Shown here: piece after piece, positions 3,277-21,747 of the stretch | Layout of the letters: every line of letters starts with the position of its first letter | Numbering within the stretch: position 1 is the stretch's first letter | Source: Hyphomicrobiales bacterium | GTDB taxonomy: Bacteria > Pseudomonadota > Alphaproteobacteria > Rhizobiales > Methyloligellaceae | Reading direction: 5' to 3' | DNA length: 51,427 nucleotides | Assembly (NCBI GenBank): GCA_021775575.1 | Contig: JAJFHO010000051.1 | Span: 1-51,427 of the forward strand | Made by a program: the position numbers and the translations under genes | Notes under the pieces: generated by a model | The model's input: only the letters and a program-made list of their open reading frames with translations | Database searches by the model: none | What the model was told of the DNA's origin: nothing

Positions 3277-3279
3277 AAA

Positions 3280-5412: not shown

Positions 5413-5440
5413 TGTAATTATTATCGGTATTGAATTCTGT

Positions 5441-5623: not shown

Positions 5624-6418
5624 TTTTCTCGCGCCCTTGATGCGCTGCCTCAGGTCGTTAATGGTGATGTTATCGTTCCAGACGGTTACGTCCCTGCCGT
5701 AGCTGGTGAGCATCACATTCACCTCGGCCTTTGTAATATCCTCAATGCTTTCTATGAAGCGCATGATGTCGTTTATGCGTTCCTTCTTCCCTACCTTCTT
5801 AGAGAAGCTCACATCTTCGAAATCGATAAGGTAGACGCGCTTCTCGTTGCCGCCGCCTTTAACGAGGAAATTGGTCGCCTTCATATCCCCGTGGACGCAT
5901 CCAAGGTCGTGAACCTTCCTCATGATGCTTCCGGACTCGACGATGAGCGACTCCCTGTCGGTATGTTCCTTTACCGCGTCCCTAAGGAGAACGGCCCCCT
6001 CTATATACTCCATGAAGAAATACCCCTTCTTGAAGGCCCCCATGGAGCGTTTCTCTATATAGGCTATCGGCTCCGGGACGAGGACAAAGCCGTCGAGGAG
6101 CATATTCGCCGCCTCCCACCCTTTAAGCCCCCTCGAACGCTTAAAGGCGTATTTTACCGATTTGGAGGCCTTAAAGGAGCGTGTGAAGTCGTCCTGCTTG
6201 AGCATGAGCTTTCTCGGCCCGCCGTTAAAAGGCGCATCCACCGTCGTCACCATCCTGTCGGTGGGTGCCGCAAAATCCTTATAGTGGCGCGCCTCGACCT
6301 CTTTTACATGCTCGTCTATACCGGCGAGATATGTAAGGAAAGGCACTTGATCGTAACCACGCCTTACAAAACCCTTATAGCCGTTCTTATTATATTCTAT
6401 TAAGTCTGTCGATGCCAT
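5606..6418 (-). CDS. LPS kinase-like protein (Kdo/WaaP family)
   Basis: 270-aa protein-kinase-fold enzyme of the lipopolysaccharide kinase family. The catalytic loop reads HGDMKATNF at 176-184 and the Mg-binding segment reads LIDFED at 197-202. The Lys-containing LMLKQD near 71-76 could be the ATP-anchoring strand. Family members phosphorylate Kdo or heptose of the inner core on the cytoplasmic side. The stop codon lies inside the last unit of the 81-bp repeat, and the segment encoding the C-terminal DYKGF is what has been duplicated; a similar YKGF occurs at residues 14-17. It follows the methyltransferase gene by 22 bp. Whether the substrate is Kdo or heptose is not decidable from sequence. 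Confidence 0.75.
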   Translation of the reverse strand: MASTDLIEYNKNGYKGFVRRGYDQVPFLTYLAGIDEHVKEVEARHYKDFAAPTDRMVTTVDAPFNGGPRKLMLKQDDFTRSFKASKSVKYAFKRSRGLKGWEAANMLLDGFVLVPEPIAYIEKRSMGAFKKGYFFMEYIEGAVLLRDAVKEHTDRESLIVESGSIMRKVHDLGCVHGDMKATNFLVKGGGNEKRVYLIDFEDVSFSKKVGKKERINDIMRFIESIEDITKAEVNVMLTSYGRDVTVWNDNITINDLRQRIKGARKDYKGF

Positions 6419-6440
6419 CTAGTCTTCTATCCTTTTTTCA

Positions 6441-7292
6441 TCATTTCGTGGCTATCATGCATAACGAGAGGAGGTCTTTAAAGAGTAGTCCCCTTGCTAC
6501 CGTGCGCCTTATACCGTAAGGAAGCCATCCCAGGGGGAGCTCCAGGGCCAATATTAAAAACGCAGGTACTTGAAAATAAAAGCCGCCTATATGGCGAAGC
6601 GCCGAAACACCTGAGAACCCGGCCTTTTTAAGGATATCGTAGAGTTCGCCGTTCGTATACTCTTTAAGGTGCAGCCCCTTGGACTCGTCGTCGTAATAGC
6701 GTGAAATATCGTGCGGCCCCATATGCCTGTTGGGTGTAACACATATATACATGCCTCCCGGGGCAAGGACCCTGTAGATATTCTTCAGCTGTTCGAAGGC
6801 GTCATCCGGGTGGAGGTGCTCCATCAGCTGATTGCTATATGCTATATCCACGCTCCCCGGCGGGAGGTTCACGCCGACGCCGTCCGAGATTATATGCTCG
6901 AAATTCGAAGGGGCCTTTTCAGCGCGGGGCTGCTCGCTTGAGACATCGACGGCATAGACCTTCTTCACATGCTCGGCGACCGAATAGGCAAGGTGACAGT
7001 CCCCCGGCCCTATCTCAAGGTACACCTTCTCCTTACCGAGAAAGCCCCGGAGCCTTTTTAGCTGTTTTTCGGTCTTCTCCGACTGCCTCTTCTTATCTTT
7101 CGTCCTCTGCAGGAGCGGCTGGTGCGGTATTCTCCTGAAGAGTTCGTCATAGAGTACCGGGTAGAGCCCCTTTCGCTCCTCGGGGGTGGCGTTTTTAAGC
7201 CTGTCGGCGATCTCCCTCTCTATCTTGTAGTGTTCGTAGAGTTGATCGTCTGTCTGGTAGGCAGACTTTGGTCTCCCTTTCTTTGGTAACAT
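6441..7292 (-). CDS. Class I SAM-dependent methyltransferase (type 11) in LPS locus
   Basis: 283 aa. Motif I is EIGPGDC at 93-99, the acidic adenosine-binding strand is YAVDVSS at 113-119, the catalytic-core segment is SNQLMEHLHP at 153-162, and LAPGG (176-180) precedes the CVTPN strand. The first 85 residues are charged and helical with no recognised domain. The C-terminus has a hydrophobic stretch near 238-262, suggesting membrane association. It is likely a methylase of an LPS sugar, lipid carrier or small metabolite. It sits 35 bp downstream of a GT9 gene in the operon. The substrate is unknown. Confidence 0.7.
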   Translation of the reverse strand: MLPKKGRPKSAYQTDDQLYEHYKIEREIADRLKNATPEERKGLYPVLYDELFRRIPHQPLLQRTKDKKRQSEKTEKQLKRLRGFLGKEKVYLEIGPGDCHLAYSVAEHVKKVYAVDVSSEQPRAEKAPSNFEHIISDGVGVNLPPGSVDIAYSNQLMEHLHPDDAFEQLKNIYRVLAPGGMYICVTPNRHMGPHDISRYYDDESKGLHLKEYTNGELYDILKKAGFSGVSALRHIGGFYFQVPAFLILALELPLGWLPYGIRRTVARGLLFKDLLSLCMIATK

Positions 7293-7327
7293 AATCTCTA
7301 TATCCAGTTATCCTGAAAAGACTTTGC

Positions 7328-8425
7328 CTATTTATTCAAGATGCGCCCAACCGTATCTATCACAAGGTCGGGTGAAAGCGACCTGATACATGAGATATGC
7401 TCACAGTTGTAGAATTTGCACGGGCGTTTAGCAACGCAGGCTTCAGGTTTTTGAAGGACCACGGCGTTATCCTCCACCGGTCCGGTCGTCTTCCAGTTGG
7501 TTGATCCTATAAGAGCTATAGTCGGCACTCTGAAGGCCTGAGCGATATGGAGCGGCCCGGAGTCCGTCGTTATCACCATCTTGCTCTTCTTTATAACGGC
7601 CGAGGCTATGCGGAGCCCAAGCCTGCCGCCCGTACAGAGCGGCTCGCTCTTCATCTCTGAAGCTATCCTTCGTATAGCCCCTGCCTCACTTGGCCCTCCT
7701 ATAAGAACCGTCCTGAGGGAGAACCTGTCAAATAAAGCGTCGGCGAGCTCAGCGCAGTACTCCTCTGGCCACTGCTTATTCCTCTTACTGCCGAAGGGGT
7801 GTATCGATACGATATCCCCTGCGCCTTCCAGAAAGCGCTCCGCCTCACGCTCCTCCCCGGAGGTCAAAAACATCTCCATCCGTGTATCCGAGGCTTTTAT
7901 GCCGATAGCAGTAAGGGCCTTTAGCTTCTCCCTTACAATGTGCCCTTCGATAGAAGAGGGCCTGTAATGGGTAAGAAGGTCAGGGAAATCCGTCCTCACG
8001 GTGCCGAGCCTTATGGGCGCGCCCGAGAGATAGGCTATCGGCACTGCGTCCGGGTCGTTACCGTAGAGGACGGCGGCGAGATCGAAACGCTCCCTCTTAA
8101 GGCGTTTTATTAAACCCGGAAATTTAAGAAGGTAGCCTATGTTCATCCTTCCGGGGTGATCTAGGAGCTCGTCAATATGAGGGTTATTTTCCAGAACTTC
8201 CCGCGCTGCACTACCCACGAGAGCGGTTATTGAGGCCTTTGGGAAGGCTTTTTTTATCGCCCTTATCGCAGGGGTGCATATAAGCGTATCCCCTATCGCC
8301 GTTGTGTTGATAACGAGTATCTTCTTTACATCCTTAAGCGCGCACGCCTCGCGCTCGTCCCTCATAAGACTTGCGGCCTTCAGATAGGCCTTTAAAAGCC
8401 CCCGTTTAATGGGTTTTAAAGACAC
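7328..8425 (-). CDS. GT9-family heptosyltransferase-like protein
   Basis: 365 aa. The N-terminal domain has KKILVINTTAIGDTLICTPA and the C-terminal domain has MVITTDSGPLHIAQAFRVP, the conserved donor-binding motif. A Cys-rich tail (CVAKRPCKFYNCEHISC) resembles the clusters in WaaC/WaaF homologues of this locus and could bind a metal or stabilise the fold. IHPFGSKRNKQWPEEY matches the phosphate-loop region. The start is GTG with AGG six bases upstream, 3 bp after the upstream methyltransferase gene. It most likely extends the core with heptose, but the acceptor is unknown. Confidence 0.75.
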   Translation of the reverse strand: MSLKPIKRGLLKAYLKAASLMRDEREACALKDVKKILVINTTAIGDTLICTPAIRAIKKAFPKASITALVGSAAREVLENNPHIDELLDHPGRMNIGYLLKFPGLIKRLKRERFDLAAVLYGNDPDAVPIAYLSGAPIRLGTVRTDFPDLLTHYRPSSIEGHIVREKLKALTAIGIKASDTRMEMFLTSGEEREAERFLEGAGDIVSIHPFGSKRNKQWPEEYCAELADALFDRFSLRTVLIGGPSEAGAIRRIASEMKSEPLCTGGRLGLRIASAVIKKSKMVITTDSGPLHIAQAFRVPTIALIGSTNWKTTGPVEDNAVVLQKPEACVAKRPCKFYNCEHISCIRSLSPDLVIDTVGRILNK

Positions 8426-8428
8426 CGG

Positions 8429-9127
8429 TTACCTGTTGTCCTTACGGGCCACGACCGACCACGAGTATACGTCCTTCTTGGCAAGAGGAGCGAGCAGGAC
8501 CGCCAGTAGATATAGTACCATAGAGACCGGCCATGAAACGAGCACCACGAGAAAGAACCTCGGCGTGCGCGGTAGTATCATGAAGAGCTTATTTAAGGCG
8601 TTATAGAAGAACTCCCCGAACCTTGTAAATACATAGCTGAATATGCTGCCGATGGGTTCTATCCCATTCACCTTGAGGCCGCTTTTGGTGACGAGTTCGT
8701 TTAGGCCGTACTTCGTGAACCTGAAGAAATCATACGGCTCGTAGTGGAGGCACCAGAGCATGGGGGCGGTAATATATACGTGCCCGCCGGGGCGCATCAC
8801 CCTCTCTATCTCCCTTAAGGCCAGAAGCGGGTCAGGGACGTGCTCAAGGACCTCGGTACAGAGGACCGAATCAAAGGAAGCATTCTTAAACGGGAGCGCA
8901 AGGCACGAGCCGAGCGCATCCGGCCCCCTTTTGGCGTTATAATCTATCGAGATTATCCTTACGTCGTCTCCCATGGCCTTATGGAATGGCCCCCTGCCGG
9001 AGCCTACATCCAAGACGTCGCCCTTCATGTGCGGGAGGCCGTGCTTTAAGAAACTCTTCTTATAGAGTTTTTTACTGATAAGGAACTTAAAGTAATTCGA
9101 CCAGTCTGATATCTTCTTCTTGTCCAC
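8429..9127 (-). CDS. SAM-dependent methyltransferase with C-terminal membrane segment
   Basis: 232 aa. VLDVGSGRGPF at 38-48 is motif I and ISIDYNAKR near 59-67 is the ribose-binding acidic strand. SVLCTEVLEHVPDP at 87-100 and MRPGGHVYITAP follow, typical of Methyltransf_11. A hydrophobic segment of about 25 residues near 191-216 probably anchors it to the inner membrane, consistent with acting on a lipid-linked sugar. The start is GTG; a GGAG lies about 12 bases upstream, so the start is moderately sure. The gene lies between GT4 and GT9 genes with short gaps (19 and 3 bp). Confidence 0.7.
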   Translation of the reverse strand: MDKKKISDWSNYFKFLISKKLYKKSFLKHGLPHMKGDVLDVGSGRGPFHKAMGDDVRIISIDYNAKRGPDALGSCLALPFKNASFDSVLCTEVLEHVPDPLLALREIERVMRPGGHVYITAPMLWCLHYEPYDFFRFTKYGLNELVTKSGLKVNGIEPIGSIFSYVFTRFGEFFYNALNKLFMILPRTPRFFLVVLVSWPVSMVLYLLAVLLAPLAKKDVYSWSVVARKDNR

Positions 9128-9146
9128 TCTTTATATCTTCTCCGGC

Positions 9147-10265
9147 CTAGGCCCTGCCACCGGCAATTTCCAAATATAGTTTTGTAAGGGAACGCACCAT
9201 GGCCCCTGCTGAGAAGACCTCTTCTGCGCGAATCTTACCGCGCGCGCCGAAGGCGCGCGCCCTGTCCTTATCCAAAAGAAGCTTGCTTATGGAGTCGGCG
9301 AGAGAGGCCTCGTCCCCGGGCTTTACGACGTACCCGGTCCTGTCGTCTTCGACGACCTCAACCAGGCCCCCTGCTGATGAGACGACCACCGGAAGCCCGG
9401 ATGCCATCGCCTCTATTACCGCTATGCCGAGCCCCTCCCATAGGGACGGGAGCACGTACAGGTCCAGAGCCCTTAATACCACGGGTATATCGCGCCTCTG
9501 GCCGAGAAAACACACCTTGCCGGCGAAAGATAGGCTTCTAACCTCTTCTTTCAGCTCTTCTGCGAGAGGGCCGTCGCCAACGATTACAAGTGTCGCCAGC
9601 GGCACCTCTTCCAAGACCGACTTGAAGGCACGGATTAAGTGCTTAACCCCCTTCTGCTCCGAAAGGCGGCAGACGCTCCCGACCACGGGGCCGTCATCGT
9701 CGATGCCGATGGTGCGCCTCGCCTCCAACTGCTCCATATCTATATCGAAACGCTCGGTTTCAATACCATTATATATCACTTCGAACTTCGAAGGGTCTAT
9801 GGAGTCGCGCTCTGAAACGTAATCCATAACAGCCTTCGATACCGCTACGATGCGCGAAGTCTTCTTCGCCAGGAGCCGGTTTACGAGGCTCCTCTTGAGC
9901 TTATAACTGAGGTAGACGTTATGCTCAGTCGTAACCACCGGCACTCCGGCCACAAAGGCAGCCACCCTGCCGTACAGACAGGCATGGTAGAGGTGGGTGT
10001 GCACCAGGTCTATCGAACGGGTCTTTATTATATCCTTTATGAGCCCCGGTATAGCAGTATCGAAGCTCTTCTTCACCATCCTGCCGAGGCTTATAACCTC
10101 GAAGCCCATGGCCTCAATCTCAGCACCGATAGCGCCCTTCTCGCCTATGCAGCAGACAGTCGGCCTGAAGGTTGAAAGATCGATATTTTTGAGGACCGTT
10201 CTTAAGTGCTCCTCGGCGCCGCCAACCGGAAGCGTAGCGAAGACATAAAGAATATTCAAATCCAC
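9147..10265 (-). CDS. Glycosyltransferase family 4 (GT-B fold)
   Basis: 372 aa. The N-terminal domain has the glycine-rich acceptor loop PVGGAEEHLR near 13-22. The C-terminal donor domain has RLSEQKG at 200-206 and the E-x7-E motif EGLGIAVIE at 277-285, followed by AMASGLPVV. These are standard for retaining GT4 enzymes that build LPS core or O-antigen. The first possible start is GTG 10265. A GGAG sits five bases before TTG 10259, and translation from there gives MNILYVFATLPVGG, the more family-like N-terminus, so 10259 may be the true start. It lies right beside the foldback element at 10273-10399. Sugar specificity is unknown. Confidence 0.8.
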   Translation of the reverse strand: MDLNILYVFATLPVGGAEEHLRTVLKNIDLSTFRPTVCCIGEKGAIGAEIEAMGFEVISLGRMVKKSFDTAIPGLIKDIIKTRSIDLVHTHLYHACLYGRVAAFVAGVPVVTTEHNVYLSYKLKRSLVNRLLAKKTSRIVAVSKAVMDYVSERDSIDPSKFEVIYNGIETERFDIDMEQLEARRTIGIDDDGPVVGSVCRLSEQKGVKHLIRAFKSVLEEVPLATLVIVGDGPLAEELKEEVRSLSFAGKVCFLGQRRDIPVVLRALDLYVLPSLWEGLGIAVIEAMASGLPVVVSSAGGLVEVVEDDRTGYVVKPGDEASLADSISKLLLDKDRARAFGARGKIRAEEVFSAGAMVRSLTKLYLEIAGGRA

Positions 10266-10272
10266 TCCAGGA

Positions 10273-10399
10273 TATAGATACCCTGTGGCTTGAAACTATA
10301 GCCACGCCTTCTAAGGATAATCCGATTATTGCTTATTTGAAGCGTAAAGAGAGAAAACCACTCTGATTCTTATAAATTTAAAGCCACAGGGTATTATAT
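10273..10399. repeat. 127-bp AT-rich foldback element with terminal inverted repeats (MITE-like)
   Basis: A 13-bp perfect inverted repeat (TACCCTGTGGCTT at 10279-10291 against AAGCCACAGGGTA at 10381-10393) extends to about 19 bp on each side with one indel (ATATAGATACC versus ATATAATACC). The interior is AT-rich and has no open frame. I could not find a convincing target duplication. It sits in the only large gap of the LPS locus (10266-10536). The rest of that gap (10400-10536) shows no gene; only a short CCCC...GGGG pairing near 10480-10500 is visible. Confidence 0.5.
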
Positions 10400-10536
10400 G
10401 AAATTATAAAAAAATAATCAAATCATAGATTTCGATGAGGCGGTTACTTGGATGTGAATGGAGGGTTAAAGCTTAGGCGCCCCTTGTTTATCTTTCGGGG
10501 AATATGTGTGGCGGGGGGGCTTCGTCAAAGATGACA

Positions 10537-11421
10537 TTACCTCTCAAGTAGGCCTTTCTTCTTACGTTCCTCCCTTTTTTTGTACATCTTAACCGTATGC
10601 TCCGCTATTCGTTCAGTCTTCTTAAGCACTTTTGCGATAAAGGACCGGTCATCCTTTGTTATATCCCCCCCTCTATAGGTCTTAAAGAAGCGGAGCCTGT
10701 CGGCCCTCGTAAAAACTTCCTTCGGAGACGAATAATTAAGGGCCGCGATATCCTTAACGAGCCAGCGCCCCCTGAAACGGCTCCTCTCTTCGCATCTCTG
10801 GAGGTCTATGAGCTTAAGCGACCAAGAGCCTCCTAATAAACCCTCTCCCCCCGTTTCCCCGTCAGCGTCCCATCTGGCCATTATGTGTGTTAGATAGAGG
10901 TCGCGGTGGTTAAAACCCTCGTCGTGGAGCTTCTTTACGAGCCTGGCCGTCGCCTCTATAAGAGCCCTCTTCTTCATGATCATCATCTTCGATAGCGGCG
11001 GGGCAAAGTCGTGAACAAGGGTTTCGAGCTGCGTGAAGTCGTCAAGGGCGACGGTGACGAGAAAGGCCTCCTGCGTGGATTTGCTCGAAAAACGCTCACC
11101 GTAGGCCGCGGCTTCGAGCGCCGGCACTCCGGCCCTTTTAAACGCCTCTATCGCATCCCACTCTCTTTTCGCTTCACTTGAGGCGCGCCCCAGACGCGCC
11201 TTCCGGCGGTCGCCGAAACCGGCCTTCTGGGTGTGGCGCTTCAGGTAAAAACCCCGCTCCCCGCCTCCCGGAAGCGGGAGTGTAAACCTCGTTATGGAGC
11301 GAAGAGTGATGCGCTTTCTTACCTCGCCGCCTTCGAAGTCCATAAAGGAGTCGAATGAATCGAGGCCGTGCTCCCTGAAGATCTCCCTGAAATCGTCATT
11401 TATCTCCATCTCACCCGCCAA
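10537..11421 (-). CDS. LPS core heptose kinase-like protein (WaaP/RfaP family)
   Basis: 294 aa, kinase fold. FYLKRH near 58-63 holds the probable ATP-anchoring Lys. HRDLYLTHI at 172-180 is the catalytic loop, and LIDLQR at 204-209 replaces the DFG-type Mg site as in WaaP. WaaP phosphorylates O-4 of HepI, a modification that strengthens the outer membrane. The N-terminal lobe includes the KAGFGDRRKARLG region common in WaaP relatives. The first start is TTG 11421, overlapping the upstream GT4 stop by 11 bp; ATG 11409 is an equally plausible start. This is the second kinase of the locus and differs from the 5606-6418 protein. Confidence 0.75.
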   Translation of the reverse strand: MAGEMEINDDFREIFREHGLDSFDSFMDFEGGEVRKRITLRSITRFTLPLPGGGERGFYLKRHTQKAGFGDRRKARLGRASSEAKREWDAIEAFKRAGVPALEAAAYGERFSSKSTQEAFLVTVALDDFTQLETLVHDFAPPLSKMMIMKKRALIEATARLVKKLHDEGFNHRDLYLTHIMARWDADGETGGEGLLGGSWSLKLIDLQRCEERSRFRGRWLVKDIAALNYSSPKEVFTRADRLRFFKTYRGGDITKDDRSFIAKVLKKTERIAEHTVKMYKKREERKKKGLLER

Positions 11422-12589
11422 CTCTCCCGGTGGAGATATTTACGACCTTCTCCTCTCCGGCAAGCCCCCTGCAAACTTCGAGCGTATGTGAGATATTCTT
11501 CTCTATCGTAAAGCCCGAGGCCTTCTTTGCGGCCTCCTCCGATACTGCGCCGTCTTCGGCATTCATCTCAAGGAGTGATCTTATCCTGTCGGCCATGATA
11601 TGCGTACTTGACGGGTCTTCTATTACAAAACCGTCAACGCCTTCGGTTATCACTTCACTTGCGCCGTTCTTTCCCGTGGTTATGACGGGGAGCCCGCAGG
11701 CCATCGCCTCAAGGCAGGCATTCGCAAACGGGTCGTAGAGGGTCGGAAGGACGAATATATCCGCTGTGCCGTAGTACCTCTCCATATCGCCGACCCTGCC
11801 CGTAAAGATCACCTCGCCTCCGAGCCCCATTGAGGAGGCGAGCCTTCGGTATCTCTCTATATCCCCCCTGCCGCCGCTCCCTGTCACCATTAGCTTTACG
11901 AAGGTGCCATCATTTTTCAAGACCGACATGGCTTCCAGAAGATAGTCGAGTCCCTTTCTCTTGAAATCGTTTGCGCTAAAGAGAATTATCGGTTCGCTCC
12001 CGCTAATGGAGTATTCCCTTCTTACCTCATCTCTGTAGGCCCTCTTCTCCGGGTTGAACCTAGCCGAATCGTAGCCGTTATATATGACGTGCACCTTTGA
12101 GTCGTCTACATCGTATAGGCTAATAACGCGCTCCTTCAGCATTCTTGAGTTGGTTATTATCTTCCTGAAATTGCCGTTTGAGAAGAGACGTTTTTCCATA
12201 CGGAGTATAAGCAGGTGCTTGGGATTTAAATACCTGAGGAACCTTCTTAAGGGGTTTGGGAATCTGGCGCGTAGAACGTCGGCGTGAAGCCCCTCGCCCA
12301 CCCTGTAGATATCGAGAGGATAGAAGGGCGTAAGTCCGTACACCAGGTCGAAGGTGGTCTTCTTTAAGTGGCGGTTCAAGTTTCTTGGGAATGTTATGAC
12401 CTTGAGGAGGGAAAGCCACTTGACGTAAGGCACGTAATGGAAGATCAGACCTGGCTCTTCGTCCCAGGCTGCGGCATAGACATGGACCTCGTGACCCGCG
12501 CGGGCGAGCCCCCTCGTAAGGTTCACGGCATATCTCTCAAGCCCGCCCTTTCCTTCCTGGTGCTCTTTTACGACGACGGCTATCTTCAT
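11411..12589 (-). CDS. Glycosyltransferase family 4, WaaG-like
   Basis: 392 aa. It opens MKIAVVVKEHQEGKGGLERYAVNL, in which KGGLERY is the GT4 acceptor glycine loop typical of WaaG-like glucosyltransferases. NDFKRKG near 207-213 and the E-x7-E-type segment DPFANACLE at 286-294, followed by AMACGLPV, complete the donor site. WaaG adds glucose to HepII; neighbouring waaF, waaC and the WaaP-like gene support an inner/outer core junction role. It overlaps the downstream kinase gene and begins 12 bp after the Trm112 gene, indicating one transcript. The sugar donor is inferred from family resemblance only. Confidence 0.75.
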   Translation of the reverse strand: MKIAVVVKEHQEGKGGLERYAVNLTRGLARAGHEVHVYAAAWDEEPGLIFHYVPYVKWLSLLKVITFPRNLNRHLKKTTFDLVYGLTPFYPLDIYRVGEGLHADVLRARFPNPLRRFLRYLNPKHLLILRMEKRLFSNGNFRKIITNSRMLKERVISLYDVDDSKVHVIYNGYDSARFNPEKRAYRDEVRREYSISGSEPIILFSANDFKRKGLDYLLEAMSVLKNDGTFVKLMVTGSGGRGDIERYRRLASSMGLGGEVIFTGRVGDMERYYGTADIFVLPTLYDPFANACLEAMACGLPVITTGKNGASEVITEGVDGFVIEDPSSTHIMADRIRSLLEMNAEDGAVSEEAAKKASGFTIEKNISHTLEVCRGLAGEEKVVNISTGRVGG

Positions 12590-12601
12590 ACGATTACCGG
12601 C

Positions 12602-12778
12602 CTATTCAGACTTATACTCGCTCGCCTCTTCTATAAGCATCACCGGTATATCGTCCTCGACCGGATAGACGAGGGAGCAGGTAGCGCAGTATAAGCCAGA
12701 CGCTTCTTCGGTGAGGGTCACCTCGCCCTTACACTTCGGACAGGCCAGTACGCTCAGCAAATCACTCGATATAGCCAT
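12602..12778 (-). CDS. Trm112-family small zinc-binding protein (YcaR-like)
   Basis: 58 aa. It opens MAISSDLLSVLACPKCKGEV and has a second pair, YCATCSLVYPVEDDIPVML, so Cys13/16 and Cys31/34 form a zinc ribbon. It ends MLIEEASEYKSE. This is the full Trm112/YcaR pattern (LLxxLxCPxCKG... CxxCxxxYPIxDGIPVML). Trm112 proteins activate partner methyltransferases in eukaryotes and archaea; bacterial YcaR is often found in LPS gene neighbourhoods. The ATG is preceded by GGGAGGAATAA, an excellent ribosome site. It lies between the membrane-protein gene and the GT4 gene. A partner among the methyltransferases of this locus is possible but speculative. Confidence 0.9.
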   Translation of the reverse strand: MAISSDLLSVLACPKCKGEVTLTEEASGLYCATCSLVYPVEDDIPVMLIEEASEYKSE

Positions 12779-12810
12779 TTATTCCTCCCGGTTGGAACTA
12801 TTTCAGTATA

Positions 12811-13785
12811 TTAAGATTGTACGGCTTCCTTTGTACCCTCGTCCATCTCCTTCTTTCCGCCGAGGCGCACATAAATGACGCCACCGACGAGACTGACCAT
12901 AACGGTTACGAAGAAGAAGAGAAGAGAGAGGCCGAGGGCCTCTTCCTGCGCCACGCCTACCTTGGTGAACGTATATACGAAGACACCTTCCCTTACTCCA
13001 AGTCCCGCAAGGGATAGCGGGAGCATGGATATCACGGTAGCGAGTGGAACGAAGACGAAGAAATATGTCATCGAAATATCTATGCCGAGACCGCGTCCCA
13101 ACATAAAATATATCACAATCACGCCCCCCTGCACAAAGAAAGAACAGAGGAAGGCCTTGAAGATAATCATCGGGCTAGACTTATAGCTCATGAGGACGGT
13201 ATAGAATTTGTCTATCTTGTCGTTTATGCCGTAAAAATGTATGCGCGCCATTATATTCATGGCCCAGCGGTGAAGGAGATCCACCCATATCACAAGGCTT
13301 GCCGTTGTAAATCCGGCTATGATGAAGAGCAAGACGCTTGAAATACCCAGGCCGACGAGGAGACTCTGTCCGGTTACGACCGCGACAAAGGCGATCACCA
13401 TAAGGGCCGCCAGCCCCGTGTACCTGTCCAGAAAGACCGAGGCTACTGCGAGCCCGCCCTTGCCCGAGGCCTTATAGAGGTAATAACCCTTTATGACGTC
13501 GCCGCCGACGATGGTCGGCAGGAAATTATTAAAGAACATACCGACGAGATAGATCCCCATGAGCTTTATATAAGGGATCTCGGCGTCCTTTTTAAGTATT
13601 ATCGACCACCTGAGTATAGAGACGAACTGGATGCATATGAGTACTGCTATGGAAGCGAAGAAGAGCGTCTTATCCATCGACAGAATCGTATCCTTAAAGT
13701 CATTGAGGTCCATCCCCCTGAAGAGGATGATCATTATGGTGACGCTTATGCCTATTTTAATTATCGTAAAAAGGTGCTTTCTCAC
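12811..13785 (-). CDS. UPF0104 / lysylphosphatidylglycerol synthase TM-region family membrane protein
   Basis: 324 aa with about eight hydrophobic helices. Conserved segments include GMFFNNFLPTIVGGDVIKGYYLY, where the NxxLPxxxGGDxxR-like motif is the family hallmark, and LPLSLAGLGVREGVF near the C-terminus. The family (AglD/MprF N-terminal type) is thought to move or handle lipid-linked substrates. Beside a GT2 polyprenyl-phosphate glycosyltransferase it plausibly flips a polyprenyl-P-sugar. The GTG start overlaps the GT2 stop by 4 bp (GTGA), so translation is coupled. It ends with a short charged tail. Transport function is inferred from family and context. Confidence 0.8.
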   Translation of the reverse strand: MRKHLFTIIKIGISVTIMIILFRGMDLNDFKDTILSMDKTLFFASIAVLICIQFVSILRWSIILKKDAEIPYIKLMGIYLVGMFFNNFLPTIVGGDVIKGYYLYKASGKGGLAVASVFLDRYTGLAALMVIAFVAVVTGQSLLVGLGISSVLLFIIAGFTTASLVIWVDLLHRWAMNIMARIHFYGINDKIDKFYTVLMSYKSSPMIIFKAFLCSFFVQGGVIVIYFMLGRGLGIDISMTYFFVFVPLATVISMLPLSLAGLGVREGVFVYTFTKVGVAQEEALGLSLLFFFVTVMVSLVGGVIYVRLGGKKEMDEGTKEAVQS

Positions 13786-14729
13786 TTTTTCCCCAGTACT
13801 TTCTTTACCACAAAGATGGGTTTATCCTGCGATTCGTGGTACACCCTTGCTAACATCTCTCCAAGAAGGCCCAGGATAATCAACTGCACGCCGAGTATAA
13901 TGCATAGTATGGATAAGAGCAGTAAGGGCCTTGCGCCGATGGAGGCCCCGGTAAATACCTTTAAATACGTAAGGTAGAGGCCCATAATGAACCCTACCGC
14001 CCCCAGGAACAGGCCCACCGGCCCGAAGGCGTGTATGGGGCGTGTCGAGAAGCTCTGTAAGAATTTAACGGTAATAAGGTCGAGGATTACCTTAAAGGTC
14101 CTCATGATACCGTATTTGGAGACGCCGTACTTCCTCGGATGGTGGTTCGTCTCCACCTCTATTATATCGGCACCAACCCAGCTAGCTATAGCCGGAATAA
14201 AACGGTGCATCTCCCCGTAGAGGCGGATGTTGTCTATGACCTCTTTTCTGTACGCCTTTAGCGTACAGCCGTAGTCGTGTAGCTTAACCCCCGTAACGCG
14301 CCCTATGAGCCAGTTTGCGATCTTAGAGGGGAGTTTCCTCGATAAGAACTTATCCTTCCTGTGCTTCCTCCAGCCGCTTACTATATCCGCATCCTTTATC
14401 TTCTCAATAAGGAGGGGAATGTCTGCCGGGTCGTTCTGGAGGTCCGCGTCCATCGTTATATAGACGTCTCCCCTGGCGTAATGGAAGCCCGCGGCCATCG
14501 CCGGCGTCTGGCCAAAGTTTCTCCTGAAGCTTACGACGACGACTTTCGAGTCTTTCTTCTGAATACCCTCAAGGACACCAAGGCTTCCATCCCTGCTGCC
14601 GTCGTCAACAAAGACGAACTCGTAGGGGTTTTTGACCTTCTTCATTGCGTCTTTAAGGGCCTTATATAGATGAGGAAGGCTCTCTTCCTCATTATAGACC
14701 GGAACTATTATGGATATGAACTCTGCCAA
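13782..14729 (-). CDS. GT2 glycosyltransferase, polyprenyl-phosphate type (ArnC/DPM1-like)
   Basis: 315 aa. VDDGSRDGS at 41-49 and MDADLQNDP at 93-101 give the metal/UDP site of GT-A enzymes. The C-terminus has two membrane helices at about 235-257 and 267-291, the layout of ArnC-, GtrB- and DPM1-like enzymes that charge undecaprenyl phosphate with a sugar. The start is TTG with GAGG five bases upstream. Coupled to the AglD-like membrane protein, it likely supplies a lipid-linked sugar for periplasmic modification of lipid A or core. The identity of the sugar is not apparent. Confidence 0.8.
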   Translation of the reverse strand: MAEFISIIVPVYNEEESLPHLYKALKDAMKKVKNPYEFVFVDDGSRDGSLGVLEGIQKKDSKVVVVSFRRNFGQTPAMAAGFHYARGDVYITMDADLQNDPADIPLLIEKIKDADIVSGWRKHRKDKFLSRKLPSKIANWLIGRVTGVKLHDYGCTLKAYRKEVIDNIRLYGEMHRFIPAIASWVGADIIEVETNHHPRKYGVSKYGIMRTFKVILDLITVKFLQSFSTRPIHAFGPVGLFLGAVGFIMGLYLTYLKVFTGASIGARPLLLLSILCIILGVQLIILGLLGEMLARVYHESQDKPIFVVKKVLGKK

Positions 14730-14792
14730 TTAAGCCTCTATCTATATTTTGCCGTTATAAATGCCTTGCCCCATGTTATCAAACTGTAAGGC

Positions 14793-14810
14793 TCGGGGAA
14801 ACGTCCCCGA
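14793..14810. other. Stem-loop in the waaC-GT2 intergenic gap
   Basis: TCGGGGA and TCCCCGA pair perfectly (7 bp) around the loop AACG. It sits between the waaC stop and the GT2 start on the minus strand and has no U-tract, so it is more likely an RNA-processing or partial attenuation element than a strong terminator. The operon may be weakly split here. Confidence 0.4.
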
Positions 14811-14830
14811 AAGTGGCATTGTCGAATGAT

Positions 14831-15877
14831 CTAAGCGTTAACTCTCGCGCCCTTACTCTCCCCCTCACCTCCGATTACCTCGCCGATGGCGTCGAGGACC
14901 TCTTCAGGGGTTATATCCAACATGCACTCGTTATCGGCCGGGCACACCCTCTTAAAGCACGGGCTGCACGAAAGGGGCTTTCTTATGACAACGTGATTAT
15001 CTCCGTAGGGCCCCGTGCGCCACGGCGCGGTCGGGCCGAAGAGCGCCACCACGGGCGTACCGACAGCGGAGGCTATGTGCATTGGGCCGGTATCAACGGT
15101 CACGGCGAGGCGTGCGAGCCTCAGGAGAAGAGCGAGTTCCATAAGCCCCGTCTTGCCGGTAAGGTCCACAGCACCACTGCCGGCGGCCTTGATTATCCTA
15201 CTCAGGTATTCTCTATCTTCAGGGGCACCTGCAAATACTGCCTTCACGGCGAATCTCTTCATAACGCCGCGCGTAACCTCTGAAAAGCCCTCTACCGTCC
15301 AGAGCTTCGTAGCCCACCTCGCCACTGGAAAGAGCATAACAAAGGACTCCCCCGGAGAGATGCCGGCCTCTTTTAAAAGAGTAGCGGCCCTCGCCTCGGC
15401 GGCACCGTCGATATGCACCGGAAAGACGACTTCCCCGCCGTAGCCCGAAACGTAGTTGGCAAGCGCCATATACCTGTCGACAGCATGCATATCCGGGTCG
15501 TAGGCCATAGGCTTCTCGTTAAGGAAGATCGGACTAAGCTCCCTCGCGTTCGAGAAGCCTATCTTCCTCTTCCCCCCGGAAAGGAGGACCCATAGAGCGC
15601 TCTTCAAGAGCCCCTGGAAGTCGATTACGATATCATAATTTTTATCTTTAAGATACCTTGAGATGGAGAGGTTATAGGCGAAGTTTTTTCTCCAGCCGCG
15701 CCTTGATACTATAACCTCGTCTATCAGCGGGTGCCCTTTTAATATCGAACTCGCCGCCTCTTCCACAAGCCAGTCAATACTTAGTTCTTCCGTAATGCCG
15801 CTCCGAAGCCCGTGGAGCACCGGAAGCGTATGCACGCAGTCGCCTATGGAAGAAAGCTTTATGATAAGAATCTTCAT
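14831..15877 (-). CDS. waaC: LPS heptosyltransferase I (WaaC/RfaC-like)
   Basis: 348-aa GT9 enzyme. KLSSIGDCVHTLP at 7-19 and IDWLVEE at 34-40 match heptosyltransferase I, as does DFQGLLKSAL at 86-95. VDTGPMHIA at 261-269 with AVGTPVVALFGPT is the ADP-heptose site. The tail carries CSPCFKRVCPADNECML. WaaC transfers the first L-glycero-D-manno-heptose onto Kdo2-lipid A. The ATG overlaps the gmhB stop by 4 bp (ATGA), so it is coupled to synthesis of its precursor. Among the six GT9 genes this is the best WaaC match. Confidence 0.85.
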   Translation of the reverse strand: MKILIIKLSSIGDCVHTLPVLHGLRSGITEELSIDWLVEEAASSILKGHPLIDEVIVSRRGWRKNFAYNLSISRYLKDKNYDIVIDFQGLLKSALWVLLSGGKRKIGFSNARELSPIFLNEKPMAYDPDMHAVDRYMALANYVSGYGGEVVFPVHIDGAAEARAATLLKEAGISPGESFVMLFPVARWATKLWTVEGFSEVTRGVMKRFAVKAVFAGAPEDREYLSRIIKAAGSGAVDLTGKTGLMELALLLRLARLAVTVDTGPMHIASAVGTPVVALFGPTAPWRTGPYGDNHVVIRKPLSCSPCFKRVCPADNECMLDITPEEVLDAIGEVIGGEGESKGARVNA

Positions 15878-16443
15878 CCATGGCCCTTCTGGTAGTCCTC
15901 TTCTATCCAGCGGGCCGCACTAAGCAGGTCCGCGGCTATATGGTCCGGGGCGATGGTCAGCTCGTCTTTCGTCTTAGCACCTAAACCGGTGGTAACGAGG
16001 ACCGAGACAGCCTTGATATTTCTGGCAAGCTCCATATCCGAGGCCTTGTCTCCAACGACATAGCTCTTCTCCATATCGAGGAAAAATTCGGAGGCGGCAT
16101 CGCTCACCATGCCTGTGGCCGGCTTCCTGCATCCGCACCCCTCATCCGGCCTGTGCGGGCAGAAGTAGAGAGCGTCTACGAACGCCCCCCCCTCTTCAAG
16201 GAGTTCCGTCAGGCGGTCGTTTACGGCTCGAAGCGCCTCCTCGGTAAAATATCCCCTGCCGATGCCCGACTGGTTAGAGACTATGATAACGCGCATTCCG
16301 AGCGAGTTGAAGGTCTCTATCGCCTCGGCTGCGCCGTCAAAGAGCTTAACCTTCTCCGGGTCCGAGAGGTAGCCAGGATCAACGTTTATCGTACCGTCCC
16401 TGTCGAGGAAGACGACGGCGAGGCTTTGCCTAGAGAGAACCAC
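15874..16443 (-). CDS. gmhB: D-glycero-beta-D-manno-heptose-1,7-bisphosphate 7-phosphatase
   Basis: 189-aa HAD phosphatase. FLDRDGTIN at 12-20 holds the nucleophile and acid/base Asp pair, SNQSGIGRG at 56-64 is motif II, and GDKASD at 131-136 is motif IV. The zinc loop CPHRPDEGCGCRKP (Cys95, His97, Cys103, Cys105) is specific to GmhB/HisB-type members. It removes the 7-phosphate of heptose bisphosphate made by the kinase encoded at 279-1283. The GTG start has GGGGAG about nine bases upstream and overlaps the waaF stop by 14 bp. Confidence 0.92.
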   Translation of the reverse strand: MVLSRQSLAVVFLDRDGTINVDPGYLSDPEKVKLFDGAAEAIETFNSLGMRVIIVSNQSGIGRGYFTEEALRAVNDRLTELLEEGGAFVDALYFCPHRPDEGCGCRKPATGMVSDAASEFFLDMEKSYVVGDKASDMELARNIKAVSVLVTTGLGAKTKDELTIAPDHIAADLLSAARWIEEDYQKGHG

Positions 16444-17494
16444 TTGAGTCGCTCCCCACTGTCATCTCCCCTGATAGCTCGAGTGCCGCCTGGAGCACAT
16501 CCTCCGGGGTCACGCCGCTGAAGCAGTCGTAAGTTCCAGTCATGCACTCCCTCTTGAAGCAAGGCACGCAGTGTATCTTTCTCTGTATAACCCTGACGGA
16601 TGGGCCGATGGGGCCGGTCAGCTCAGGTGAAGTAGAGCCAAAGACCGCTACCGTCGGCACGCCAAGGGCCGCCCCTATATGCATCGGGCCGGAGTCGTTC
16701 GTAATAAATGCGTTAAGCCCGGAGGCTATTGCCATAAACTCCCTAAGATCGATCTTGCCGGTAAGGTTAAAGTGCTTTACCGAGAGTTCATCAGAGACGC
16801 TCGCCGAAGCCTCCGCGTCGTCCGGCCCGCCGAATAAGAGAGGCACGGCCCCGGTCTCCAAAGAATAGCCGTCGAGAACGGCAGCGAACTTCTCCGCCGG
16901 CCACATCTTCGCCGGGCCGTAGCTAGCCCCCGGAGAGGCGCCTATGAGCTTAGTACCCTCTCCGATGCCGAGTCCTCTCAGGTACTTATCGGCCTTCGAT
17001 CGTTCTTCGGTTGATATCAATATTTTTGGAACCGGGTTATCGGTCGTCTCGCCGCCGAGTTCCTTAATGATATTAAGGTAGTAGAGGGACTGGTGGACTT
17101 CGAGAATTTCCGTGGAAGACGGTATGGCTTTCGTAAGGAACGGCGAGCGCAGGTCTCTGGCGTAGCCGACGCGCTCCGGCACCCTCGCAAGGAACGCGAT
17201 GAGAGCCGCTTCAAAGGCGTTCTGGAAGAGGACGGCGAGGCTGAAATCCATCTTCTTAAGTTCACCGGCAAGCCGCATGCGCCCCTTAAAACCCTTATGG
17301 CGGCCGGAGGAGTCGTACTCAACGGTGCCCGATACGGCCGGATGCCCGGTAAAGACAGGGATGACGCGCCCCTTGGCGAGGACCGTTATCTCTGAGGCCG
17401 GATAAAGGGATTTAAGCGCATCAAGGGCCGGTAGCGTCATGACCGCGTCGCCTATCCAGTTCGGAACTCTCAAAAGAATCTTATCTGTTTTCAC
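16430..17494 (-). CDS. waaF: LPS heptosyltransferase II (WaaF/RfaF-like)
   Basis: 354-aa GT9 enzyme. RVPNWIGDAVMTLPAL at 9-24 is the classic WaaF N-terminus, and SPGASYGPAKMWPAEKFA near 187 is the WaaF phosphate-binding region. NDSGPMHIGAALGVP forms the ADP-heptose site. The tail has CVPCFKRECMTGTYDC. WaaF adds the second heptose. The start is GTG with AAGGG six bases upstream. It is the first gene of the LPS operon, about 50 bases downstream of the predicted transcription start of the promoter at 17553-17583. Confidence 0.88.
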   Translation of the reverse strand: MKTDKILLRVPNWIGDAVMTLPALDALKSLYPASEITVLAKGRVIPVFTGHPAVSGTVEYDSSGRHKGFKGRMRLAGELKKMDFSLAVLFQNAFEAALIAFLARVPERVGYARDLRSPFLTKAIPSSTEILEVHQSLYYLNIIKELGGETTDNPVPKILISTEERSKADKYLRGLGIGEGTKLIGASPGASYGPAKMWPAEKFAAVLDGYSLETGAVPLLFGGPDDAEASASVSDELSVKHFNLTGKIDLREFMAIASGLNAFITNDSGPMHIGAALGVPTVAVFGSTSPELTGPIGPSVRVIQRKIHCVPCFKRECMTGTYDCFSGVTPEDVLQAALELSGEMTVGSDSSGSL

Positions 17495-17552
17495 GAAAAA
17501 CCCTTAAATTACGTTAAATTAATAACATCAAATCACTACCTTATAACGATAT

Positions 17553-17583
17553 ATTATAGTACGAACCCATACCCTCTTGTCAA
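17553..17583 (-). promoter_or_regulatory. Sigma70-like promoter for the LPS core operon
   Basis: On the minus strand a perfect TTGACA (17578-17583) and a perfect TATAAT (17553-17558) are separated by 19 bases; TACTAT gives an alternative -10 at 16 bases. It is correctly placed for waaF. The rest of this 259-bp divergent gap (17584-17718) shows no open frame or strong structure. Confidence 0.65.
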
Positions 17584-17718
17584 GCAAACCAACCGAATCA
17601 TATACATATCAAACCCCTAGCCGATGTGTACTCCTTTAACGTCCGCCTAAGTGCCGCCGTTCGCATTCGCCGAAGATATAGACCGGTTGCCATAAGAAAT
17701 CGTTACGGCTTCGGCCAA

Positions 17719-17747
17719 TTGACAAAAACAGATCGCGGTGCTATCTT
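17719..17747 (+). promoter_or_regulatory. Sigma70-like promoter giving a leaderless YjbQ transcript
   Basis: TTGACA (17719-17724), a 17-base spacer and TATCTT (17742-17747). The ATG of the YjbQ gene begins only 6 bases after the -10 box, where transcription would be expected to start, and no Shine-Dalgarno is present. Confidence 0.6.
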
Positions 17748-17753
17748 CTAATA

Positions 17754-18170
17754 ATGACTTTTACCTCCAGGATAGCGGTCACGACCCGTGGCTTCTCAGA
17801 TGTCATAGATATCACCGAGAGCGTAGAGGCGATCATCGCTGAGTGCGGCATAATGGACGGCCTCGTTTGCGTCTTTGTCCCCGGCTCCACCGCCTCGATC
17901 ACCACAATAGAGTACGAGGACGGGGCCATCCACGATCTTAAAGAAGCGATCGAAGAGATCGCGCCCTATGACAAACCCTACAGACATGACAAGCGGTGGG
18001 GAGACGGAAACGGATTCTCCCACGTCCGGGCCGCCCTCTTAAAACCCGGCATCACGGTCCCTCTCCTGAAGGGCAAGATGACGCTCGGAGCCTGGCAGCA
18101 GATAATCCTCATAGACTTCGATAACAACAAAAGGAAGAGGAGCATCGTCGTTCAAATTCTCGGAGAGTAA
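17754..18170 (+). CDS. YjbQ/UPF0047 family protein (secondary thiamine-phosphate synthase-like)
   Basis: 138 aa, full length for the family. The opening matches the R-GFxDVIDIT pattern and CVFVPGSTASITTIEYEDG follows. HVRAALLKPGITVPLLKGKM and LGAWQQIILIDFDN then give the conserved His and the GxWQ-xxxxD signature. YjbQ proteins have weak thiamine-phosphate synthase activity in complementation tests; their main role is unresolved. Start ATG 17754 gives the expected N-terminus, although it has no ribosome site and lies 6 bases from a -10 box. It is divergent from the LPS operon and 40 bp upstream of the sugar kinase gene. Confidence 0.85.
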   Translation: MTFTSRIAVTTRGFSDVIDITESVEAIIAECGIMDGLVCVFVPGSTASITTIEYEDGAIHDLKEAIEEIAPYDKPYRHDKRWGDGNGFSHVRAALLKPGITVPLLKGKMTLGAWQQIILIDFDNNKRKRSIVVQILGE

Positions 18171-18210
18171 CCCTAAGCGCCTTCCCCTCGCAGGGTTTTC
18201 AATTAAAACC

Positions 18211-19116
18211 ATGAATAAAACCATAACCGGCCTCGGACAGGCCTCCTACGACTATATCGCCATTACGGACTCATACCCGCCGGAAGATACGAAGCAGGAA
18301 ATTCTCGAATGGACCGAATGCGGGGGCGGCCCCGTGGCGACGGCGCTCGTCTCCTTAAGCCGCCTTGGCGTAAAGACACGCTTTATGGGGCGCGTCTCTA
18401 ACGACCGCTCCGGGAGGCTTATCCGCGCGGGGCTAAGGCATGAAGGCGTAGATACCCGTGGGCTTAAGACCTTAAAGGGGGGAAAGAGCCAGACGGCATT
18501 TATAGTGGTCAGCCAGAAGACCGGCGGGAAGAGGACGATATTCTGGCAACGGCCTACGGTAGCCCCTCTCGGCCCGGATGAAATAAGTGCAGCTAAGATA
18601 AAAACAAGCGACATGCTTTTACTGGACGGCTTGATGAAGGAGGCCTCCATAAGGGCGGCATGTACTGCGAAGGAGGCCGGGGTGCCCGTCGTCTTCGACG
18701 CTGGCACTGTGCGTGACGGCACACTTGAGCTCCTGGGACTTTCTGACTACATCGTAGCGTCTGAGAAGTTCGCCCGCTCCTTTGCCGGAGGGCCGAAGAA
18801 GGCTTTAAAGAAATTCAGAAGCTTTAACCCAAAGGCCGCTACAGTAACGCTCGGCGCTAAAGGCTCTGTAACATCGGCCGGAGGCGGGACCTTCGCCACA
18901 CCTGCCTTTAAGGTCGCGGCCGTTGACACCACCGGAGCAGGGGACGTATTTCACGGCGGGTATATCTACGGGCTCATCTCCGGCTTCGATATACGCCGCA
19001 CAGTGGAGTTCGCCTCGGCCTTCGCAGCGCTAAAATGCCTTAAGCCCGGCGGAAGGGACGGCATCCCGACACTCGGCGAAACCCTTAAACTTATGAAGGA
19101 CGGAAAGAAGAGATGA
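18211..19116 (+). CDS. PfkB-family carbohydrate kinase
   Basis: 301 aa, ribokinase fold. GGGPVATAL at 38-46 is the PfkB substrate-side motif. DTTGAGDVFHGGY at 239-251, with catalytic Asp245, is the second signature. It phosphorylates a sugar or nucleoside hydroxyl; a DSYPPEDTKQE region near 20-30 and an aromatic/Gly-rich pocket do not allow naming the substrate. There is no strong Shine-Dalgarno before ATG 18211. It ends in an ATGA overlap with the methyltransferase gene, so the two are coupled. Confidence 0.8.
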   Translation: MNKTITGLGQASYDYIAITDSYPPEDTKQEILEWTECGGGPVATALVSLSRLGVKTRFMGRVSNDRSGRLIRAGLRHEGVDTRGLKTLKGGKSQTAFIVVSQKTGGKRTIFWQRPTVAPLGPDEISAAKIKTSDMLLLDGLMKEASIRAACTAKEAGVPVVFDAGTVRDGTLELLGLSDYIVASEKFARSFAGGPKKALKKFRSFNPKAATVTLGAKGSVTSAGGGTFATPAFKVAAVDTTGAGDVFHGGYIYGLISGFDIRRTVEFASAFAALKCLKPGGRDGIPTLGETLKLMKDGKKR

Positions 19117-19845: not shown

Positions 19846-20481
19846 ATGAGAAGGTATAATTCTCAAGAACTCAATATAAAACATGCACTTTCTCCTAGAG
19901 ACTGGAGAATTCTTGAAATATTTAAGCGAAGAGTTCATATGTATCATGAATATTGGAACGACCTTGAATTAGGTGAAATAATAGTGGCAAAGTTCAACAG
20001 AGTAACGAATGGTAAAACTTCTGGTAAAATTACTGGTCTCCCAAACTTCAACAGACTAAAAGGATTATATGTAGATTTCAGACCTTTCTTTCAGACAAGT
20101 GATCCAACTTCTTTCATAAAAATAGCAACTATGATTAACGAAAGGGTGGAGAGTCCTTTATACTGTAAATTTATAGAATTTATTGAAAAACAATGGAATG
20201 ATAATTTATCTATCCCTGGTAGCTTTAAATGGAATGACAAACCGCTGATTGTGTCTGAAGTTTTGAATATTTTCTTTAATGGCTATATTTTCCATTCAGA
20301 TAATGAGAAATATAATAAACTTCTCGACTTACTAAATTCTTTTGAAGAGGAAACCATACAATCTCTCCTTTTTTGTGCAGTACAAGGTTGTTTTATGGCA
20401 GTTAATAACCTTTACCGCTCCATCAGTGAATTAACACCTGAAAATCTAAAAGTAACTTTTCCTCTTGAATTTATAGATTAG
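19846..20481 (+). CDS. Orphan hypothetical protein, AT-rich, probably acquired
   Basis: 211 aa; I do not recognise a named family. A sampled 60-base stretch is about one third G+C, against clearly higher values in all neighbouring genes, and codon choice is A/T-ending. The protein is rich in aromatic and basic residues (LSPRDWRILEIFKRRVHMYH near the N-terminus, GLYVDFRPFFQTSDPTSF near 72-90) with no signal peptide or clear membrane helix. It appears predominantly alpha-helical. It follows the methyltransferase by 7 bp with only a distant GGAAGG upstream. Two 210-bp direct repeats lie immediately downstream. It could be cargo of a mobile segment; no function is assigned. Confidence 0.6.
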   Translation: MRRYNSQELNIKHALSPRDWRILEIFKRRVHMYHEYWNDLELGEIIVAKFNRVTNGKTSGKITGLPNFNRLKGLYVDFRPFFQTSDPTSFIKIATMINERVESPLYCKFIEFIEKQWNDNLSIPGSFKWNDKPLIVSEVLNIFFNGYIFHSDNEKYNKLLDLLNSFEEETIQSLLFCAVQGCFMAVNNLYRSISELTPENLKVTFPLEFID

Positions 20482-20514
20482 TTCAATGCGATATTCCCCT
20501 TCTATCTAGGGAAG

Positions 20515-20724
20515 GGAGTTTCTTATATTTTGTCTTTGTCCTTCATAAACAAGGGTGCGGGGTCAGCGACCATAAGACGGGGTCAATTTACGGAGCGGAG
20601 TTTTACCCCGCGACTAAATTGAGGTTTTTGGGGAGAAGGGAGCTGCACCCCTCACCCAAAAGCGCCACAAGCGCAAGGTTCGTCGCCGTTAAGAAAGGCA
20701 AAACTTCCGTCCGTAAGGACGGCC
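20515..20724. repeat. 210-bp direct repeat, copy 1
   Basis: Aligns without net indels to 20874-21083 (offset 359) with about 11 differences by eye, roughly 95% identity. It contains several hairpins: GGTC-AGC-GACC; TCAATTTA pairing with TAAATTGA around an inner GCGG/CCGC; GCGC-CACAA-GCGC; and CCGT-AAGG-ACGG. No open frame in it is convincing. Dense small hairpins recall palindromic (REP-like) non-coding elements. Confidence 0.85.
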
Positions 20725-20780
20725 CGTAACTTCTACCAATAAGGGATTGTCGCGTCGCGATGCTCATCGCAAAGACAACG

Positions 20781-20802
20781 ACTTCCGGGCGTAAGCGCGG
20801 CC
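20781..20802. repeat. 22-bp hairpin-type motif, one of three copies
   Basis: A 22-bp pattern beginning ACTTC and ending CGGCC with a central CGTAAG occurs at 20703-20724, 20781-20802 and 21062-21083. The outer two belong to the 210-bp repeats and this one is in the spacer. The spacer also has a stem-loop, TTGTC...GACAA, enclosing GCGAT/ATCGC near 20748-20780. The 685-bp region 20482-21166 otherwise shows no gene. Confidence 0.55.
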
Positions 20803-20873
20803 CAAAGCGATATTGTGGAAACGAAGAAGATAGCTTCCATCCTCCCCATTACCCCCTCCCGCCAATGGAAGAT

Positions 20874-21083
20874 GGAGTTTCTTATATTTTGTCCTTGTCC
20901 TTAATAAACAAGGGTGCGGGGTCAGCGACCATAAGATGGGATCAATTTACGGAGCGGAGTTTTACCCCGCGACTAAATTGAGGTATTTGGGGAGAAGGGA
21001 GCTGCACCTCGCACCCAAAAGCGCCACAAGCGCAAGGTTCGTCGCCGTTAAGAAATGCAAAACTTCAGGACGTAAGGACGGCC
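20874..21083. repeat. 210-bp direct repeat, copy 2
   Basis: Second copy of the element at 20515-20724, in the same orientation. Substitutions cluster toward the 3' end (the CCGTCC versus CAGGAC block). The near identity suggests recent duplication or movement rather than an old paralogous gene. It ends about 30 bp before the terminator shared with csp. Confidence 0.85.
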
Positions 21084-21113: not shown

Positions 21114-21158
21114 AAAAAAAAGCCCCCCATCTTTCGATAGGGGGCTTTTTAGTTTTTT
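21114..21158. terminator. Bidirectional intrinsic terminator
   Basis: An 11-bp stem with one mismatch (AGCCCCCCATC, loop TTTC, GATAGGGGGCT at 21121-21145) is flanked by an A-tract on the left and a T-tract on the right, so it can stop transcription from both directions. It ends the csp transcript on the minus strand and anything read through the repeat region on the plus strand. Confidence 0.9.
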
Positions 21159-21166
21159 TAGCGATT

Positions 21167-21367
21167 TTACTTAGGGAATACGTTTGAAGCCTGAGCGCCC
21201 TTGGGGCCCTGGGTTACTTCGAACTCTACAGCCTGGCCGTCGCTTAAAGTCTTAAAGCCCTCGCCCTGAATTTCGGCGTAATGAACAAAGACGTCTTCAC
21301 CGGATTCCTGCTCGATAAAGCCATAGCCCTTGGACTCGTTGAACCACTTTACTGTTCCTGTTGCCAT
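21167..21367 (-). CDS. Cold-shock domain protein (CspA family)
   Basis: 66 aa, a complete cold-shock domain. [10 protein letters not shown] begins the first strand. RNP1 is KGYGFIEQ at 13-20 and RNP2 is DVFVHY at 25-30, and the end motif is [13 protein letters not shown]. It binds single-stranded RNA or DNA and acts as an RNA chaperone. Its ATG has GGAG nine bases upstream. A promoter at 21488-21516 implies a 5' leader of roughly 110 bases, a length typical of cold-regulated csp mRNAs. A strong terminator follows the stop. It is monocistronic. Confidence 0.95.
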
Positions 21368-21516: not shown

Positions 21517-21747
21517 CTATTTTATTCATTACACTGAAAAAAGATTAAATGGTAGTCGCTACTAATAGACTACTATACACATACATAGTAGAGCAGTACA
21601 AGCGTCATCATAAGTATGTGTCTTTAAATACGCCTACGCGCCATAAGCGCAAGACTCACTTCGTTAGACACTGCAAAATTCCGATCGTCAGAGCTGAGCA
21701 CAGCGAAATCAGTTCATATCATAGGATTAGGAGATGGGCAACACCCA
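21517..21747. other. Intergenic stretch between csp promoter and arsS stop
   Basis: About 230 bp without a supported gene; AT-rich at the csp end. One perfect 7-bp stem (CTACTAT/ATAGTAG, 8-base loop) lies at 21570-21591. It lacks a T-tract on the arsS side, so it is only a weak candidate for ending the arsS transcript. Confidence 0.4.

Follow-up and report, generated by a model that had tools for sequence, protein, structure and literature searches.

Tandem copies of a candidate modular intergenic repeat with a folded core next to a cold-shock gene

The repeat locus and its modules

We analyzed a 51,427-nt stretch of DNA (hereafter, the window). A repeat search of the window located two 210-nt sequences in direct orientation, copy A (20515-20724) and copy B (20874-21083), which share 95% identity and differ by 11 substitutions and no indels. 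The initial annotation had described direct repeats of this length, orientation and approximate identity, and it was correct on each point. Its distance of 359 bp holds as the start-to-start spacing of the two copies; as a gap it does not, since the intervening DNA is 149 bp long. Gapped extension enlarged the pair to 20496-20724 and 20853-21083, with 92% identity. The features of the locus are as follows.

19846..20481, + strand: low-GC orphan ORF of 211 aa (~32% GC), directly 5′ of copy A
20496..20806, + strand: copy A, full composite element of ~311 bp (hairpin and T-tract, core, two-hairpin tail, REP-like hairpin); aligns to OFTM298 copies with 79-82% identity over 270-280 bp
20497..20516, + strand: P0 of copy A, terminator-like hairpin CCCTTC/GAAGGG, followed by a T-rich stretch
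20551..20658, + strand: structured core M1 of copy A (covariation; fold z -4.3; model match E 2e-29)
20553-20562 / 20648-20657, + strand: P1 arms of copy A
20583-20590 / 20615-20622, + strand: P2 of copy A, TCAATTTA / TAAATTGA
20595-20598 / 20608-20611, + strand: P3 of copy A, GCGG / CCGC
20662..20724, + strand: tail M2 of copy A, comprising the two hairpins below
20662-20674, + strand: GCGC CACAA GCGC hairpin of M2, copy A
20707-20722, + strand: CCGTCC GTAA GGACGG hairpin of M2, copy A
20745..20787, + strand: REP-like module M3 (GATTGTCGCGTCGC..CATCGCAAAGAC)
20853..21083, + strand: copy B, in tandem with A, 3′-truncated and without the REP-like module
20910..21017, + strand: structured core M1 of copy B (covariance-model match; fold z -5.3)
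21021..21083, + strand: tail M2 of copy B
21117..21150, - strand: intrinsic terminator of the cold-shock gene
21167..21367, - strand: cold-shock protein gene (cspA), convergent to the repeats (Pfam CSD, E 3e-29)
21637..21694, + strand: degenerate solitary M2 copy, a third piece of the tail module, on the far side of cspA

The unit is usually ordered as P0 with its T-rich tract, the core M1, the tail M2 and, often, the REP-like module M3. Hairpins equivalent to P0, such as CCTCCC..GGGAGG, lie 5′ of many copies in the metagenome-assembled genome (MAG) OFTM298, introduced below. The core is 107 nt long and consists of several helices: a closing helix (P1), P2 with a G- and A-rich internal loop, and a short apical P3. 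The arms TCAATTTA/TAAATTGA around GCGG/CCGC, to which the initial annotation had drawn attention, were found in both window copies together with further hairpins, including GGGTG../..CACCC. M2 follows M1 in 22 of the 23 copies, and its second hairpin generally has the form CCG..CGG with a GTNA loop. M3 adjoins M2 in 11 of 13 places and resembles widespread short palindromic repeats. Two copies of subtype II (L126:11032-11190 and L124:12032-12227) have in common an insert of ~100 nt, which adds two or three hairpins within the closing helix of the core. The GC content of the core is mostly 53-60%. Candidate terminal inverted repeats, GTCTTTG near the 5′ end and CAAAGAC near the 3′ end, are weak (two of 300 shuffles scored as well), and the ends vary too much among copies to be defined.

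Copy B ends just ahead of the cspA terminator, and A and B may have become tandem through local duplication of a single inserted copy. The two window copies share one open frame; a coding origin of the family was rejected, no frame being open across all copies. The orphan ORF has a methyltransferase gene on one side and the repeats on the other. It had no match in Pfam, PADLOC or NCBIfam and no homologue among plasmids or viral contigs, and it was likely acquired recently. The initial annotation had suggested that the repeats may mark the boundary of an insertion carrying this ORF. Its position beside copy A would fit this, as would the accessory genes next to other copies, but the opposite side of the ORF has no copy of the element. 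Instead, the repeats may just build up at sites that tolerate foreign genes.

Host assignment and dispersal of the family

The tetranucleotide usage of the window contig correlated with that of the MAG Deltaproteobacteria bacterium OFTM298 (G101) at r 0.94, and with that of the nominal assembly (G000) at r 0.48. GC content was 53% in the window, 60% in the sample of the nominal assembly and 51% in that of OFTM298. Furthermore, positions 2-19089 of the window were colinear with contig C49 of OFTM298 over ~19 kb (85.4% nucleotide identity), and the encoded proteins were 78-97% identical. Based on the composition and this colinear DNA, the whole contig (window 1-51427, G000:C228) most likely derives from a congener of OFTM298 and was misbinned in the nominal assembly. 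Any inference on the host genome of this contig that relied on the nominal assembly would be mistaken.

No further close copies were present in the nominal assembly or in 100 of its relatives; given the misbinning of the window contig in this assembly, the negative result carries no information. Three weak model matches among these relatives (L093-L095, 18-23 bits) were treated as chance; the two alignments inspected covered nothing beyond the closing helix and the GCGC hairpin. As a side observation on the OFTM298 MAG, two pairs of ATP synthase b/delta subunit genes lie on different contigs (L174:18784-20000 and L242:9282-10831) and are 87-88% identical, which indicates either a duplicated operon or a strain mixture.

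OFTM298 was found by scanning 84,980 genomes with a degenerate pattern, which gave a true match at L056. The pattern was too narrow, as it matched a single place in OFTM298, and its silence on other genera means little. With a covariance model, 23 matches were obtained for OFTM298 at E ≤ 0.001; the copies in the DNA that was read, about half of OFTM298 together with the window, number 23, two in the window and 21 in OFTM298. A further 1.08 Mb of OFTM298 DNA contained no copies by this model, and 116 relatives of OFTM298 gave no match under stricter filters. Within the reach of these searches, the family is restricted to a single uncultured deltaproteobacterial genus. Collections of phage, plasmid and viral sequences gave no real match to the element; the only viral pattern match (L271) was due to chance and apparently lies inside a coding sequence.

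The copies fall into two subtypes, I (n = 14) and II (n = 8), which are 86-89% alike within and 66% alike between subtypes. Single copies are mostly 80-95% alike within their subtype, and a recent burst is not visible. The earlier reading of the pair as an element was thus borne out by about 21 dispersed intergenic copies in the congeneric OFTM298. The observations named in advance as counting against it were an absence of other copies and a loss of hairpin pairing in homologues; we found the OFTM298 copies, and their pairing is kept by compensatory change.

No copy interrupts a real gene on contigs that are 83% coding, the sole overlap being with one spurious ORF. For 14 of 17 copies, the 3′ neighbor is a convergent gene; copies within clusters are not independent in this count. 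The neighbors range from housekeeping to accessory genes, and no gene family consistently adjoins the copies. Accessory neighbors in OFTM298 (L130, L125, L127, L129 and L131) include NACHT/SNaCT13, AbiU2 HEPN and RES domain genes and unknown ORFs, and these loci are possible defense-gene hotspots. The locus orthologous to that of the window (methyltransferase, cspA and radical SAM genes) is absent from the OFTM298 assembly; therefore, no empty site can be read there, and the search yielded no further congener.

Selection on the fold of the core

The predicted fold of the 107-nt core is much more stable than those of shuffled sequences, with z mostly between -3 and -6. The whole 261-nt stretch folds unremarkably (z -1.05 as RNA and -1.66 as DNA). 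After the alignment had been refitted to the manually built structure, paired cells made up 92.6%, compared with at most 49% in slid controls. Changes on both sides of a pair occurred in 58 cells against 20 ± 5 in shuffles, and 11 pairs had both sides changed against 7.8 in shuffles. The unfitted alignment agreed, with 90.7% of cells paired and 35 double-change cells against 13.5 in shuffles. Kinship of the copies inflates these double-change counts; the recurrent changes within subtypes and the G·U bias are independent of a single split.

Compensatory changes were found in all three helices. In P1, U-A to A-U, C-G to A-U and G-C to C-G changes separate the subtypes. In P2, A-U changed to G-C at two pairs, both inside subtype I and between subtypes, and in P3, subtype I shows a change from G-C to C-G. 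Nine copies, almost all belonging to subtype II, have tandem G-A pairs in place of the two outer Watson-Crick pairs of P2. The internal loops ACGGAG/GCGACTAA and CATAAG are strongly conserved in both subtypes.

Deviations from Watson-Crick pairing in the helices comprised 26 G·U and three A·C, and in each of the 23 copies the + strand folded more stably than the complementary strand, which indicates that one strand matters. Judged from the aligned copies, the core fold is under selection on that strand, as RNA or as single-stranded DNA.

Interpretation and comparison with known systems

Copies A and B are probably tandem members of a non-autonomous, modular and intergenic family of structured repeats, BOX/ERIC-like in type, which is, within the reach of the searches, specific to a genus and is spread in trans. 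As the best reading, the element of ~300 bp was previously unlisted and represents a new family. We infer that it moves. An enzyme supplied in trans would recognize the single strand in its folded form, or the corresponding RNA, and spread copies, which would settle chiefly at gene 3′ ends, where their presence is tolerated. Upon read-through, the element would fold in the transcript and could affect 3′-end formation or stability of the neighboring mRNA.

Alternatively, the core could be an undescribed functional structured RNA, such as a host or phage-derived sRNA, a ribozyme or a regulatory RNA, that is multicopy since each copy works. The favoring of only one strand is consistent with such a function, as are the internal loops strongly conserved across subtypes, the tandem G-A pairs that substitute for two Watson-Crick pairs in subtype II, and the peripheral helix inserts in two copies. 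However, neither strict nor loose thresholds gave a convincing match to the Rfam 15 covariance models, and no promoter-like site was seen in the window copies. The copies are tandem, clustered and truncated, they lack a consistent neighboring gene family, and the core is nearly always accompanied by generic palindromic modules. We consider this explanation unlikely. It is also rather improbable that the core forms a new class of structured RNA, carried as a repeat in two subtypes with optional extra helices, that drives its own spread or acts as a catalyst or guide.

The initial annotation had proposed a link to a Y1/REP-associated transposase, and a REP/BIME element moved by a Y1 (RAYT) enzyme would agree with copies that are intergenic, clustered and rich in hairpins, and with the look of M3, which is that of widespread short palindromic repeats. 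This origin is very unlikely, and the proposed link was not supported: an ORF with the NHxH-type Y1 motif was found neither in 1.24 Mb of OFTM298 (about half) nor in the window, the GTAG/CGTC tag was not seen at the foot of the core, and the core has 107 nt and several helices instead of a 20-40 bp single stem-loop. Scanning for paralogues of a partner IS in the readable half of OFTM298 gave IS481-like and tyrosine recombinase fragments with no link to the element.

Integron attC sites are conserved in structure above sequence and can lie after accessory genes. Each copy could accordingly be read as a recombination site after a cassette gene, here the orphan ORF. The fold is conserved beyond sequence, and copies lie directly 3′ of same-strand accessory genes at several loci (the window orphan, NACHT, AbiU2 and unknown 235- and 325-aa ORFs). 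Unlike attC, the element has no paired core sites: RYYYAAC and GTTRRRY were never paired in the 23 copies, which largely refutes this reading. Moreover, many copies lie next to housekeeping genes, and no integron integrase was seen in the readable half of OFTM298, where the two tyrosine recombinases tested scored 70-73 bits against the integron-integrase model, far under its cut-off of 265. We regard an attC origin as highly improbable. A purely local intergenic tandem duplication without an element, which the nominal genome with only two close copies would fit, is ruled out, as that genome is the wrong one and the congener has about 21 dispersed copies.

Separately, OFTM298 carries related tyrosine recombinases at L143:3409-4488, L214:1367-2572 and L240:8768-9052, and relatives of an ORF at L143:1-1845 occur in L178 and L207. 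Based on these relationships, an integrative element seems to be present several times in this genome.

Most of what is known about small structured repeats such as BOX and ERIC comes from well-studied pathogens, and the structured repeat family favored here belongs to an uncultured deltaproteobacterial genus. If its core is transcribed, or recognized as a folded single strand, it would offer a clean case for learning what structured interspersed repeats are selected for, with transposition, mRNA 3′ ends and RNA function as the candidate roles to be separated.

REP sequences associated with RAYT are defined as single hairpins of 20-40 bp with a GTAG or CGTC foot (PMC3733652). The present element resembles REP/BIME in its extragenic palindromic modules, which form clustered mosaics, and in the similar look of M3 (PMC3733652); it differs in its 107-nt multi-helix core without a GTAG/CGTC foot, and no RAYT gene was found in about half of OFTM298 or in the window. 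As in the SPRITE terminator-like repeats, a terminator-like hairpin is included and lies near gene 3′ ends, whereas here it is just the 5′ module of a larger unit (PMC3049150).

In ERIC and MITE-type elements, terminal inverted repeats are clear, target duplications occur and the sequence is AT-rich, in contrast to the weak terminal repeats and the mostly 53-60% GC of the core observed here (PMC10969869). The present element shares with them a size of ~100-300 bp, a non-coding and mostly intergenic nature, a frequent position at gene 3′ ends, and stable stem-loop transcripts, which are predicted in our case (PMC10969869). BOX of Streptococcus pneumoniae has terminal inverted repeats and target-site duplications and is linked to an IS (PMC3049150). 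The present element has weak terminal repeats, its IS partner was not recognized in the readable half of OFTM298, and the likeness to BOX is one of organization, with no sequence relation claimed. Like BOX, it is a modular composite intergenic repeat with tens of copies, a tightly folded predicted RNA and solitary modules, occurs in one genus or a few close species, and clusters with other small repeats (PMC3049150).
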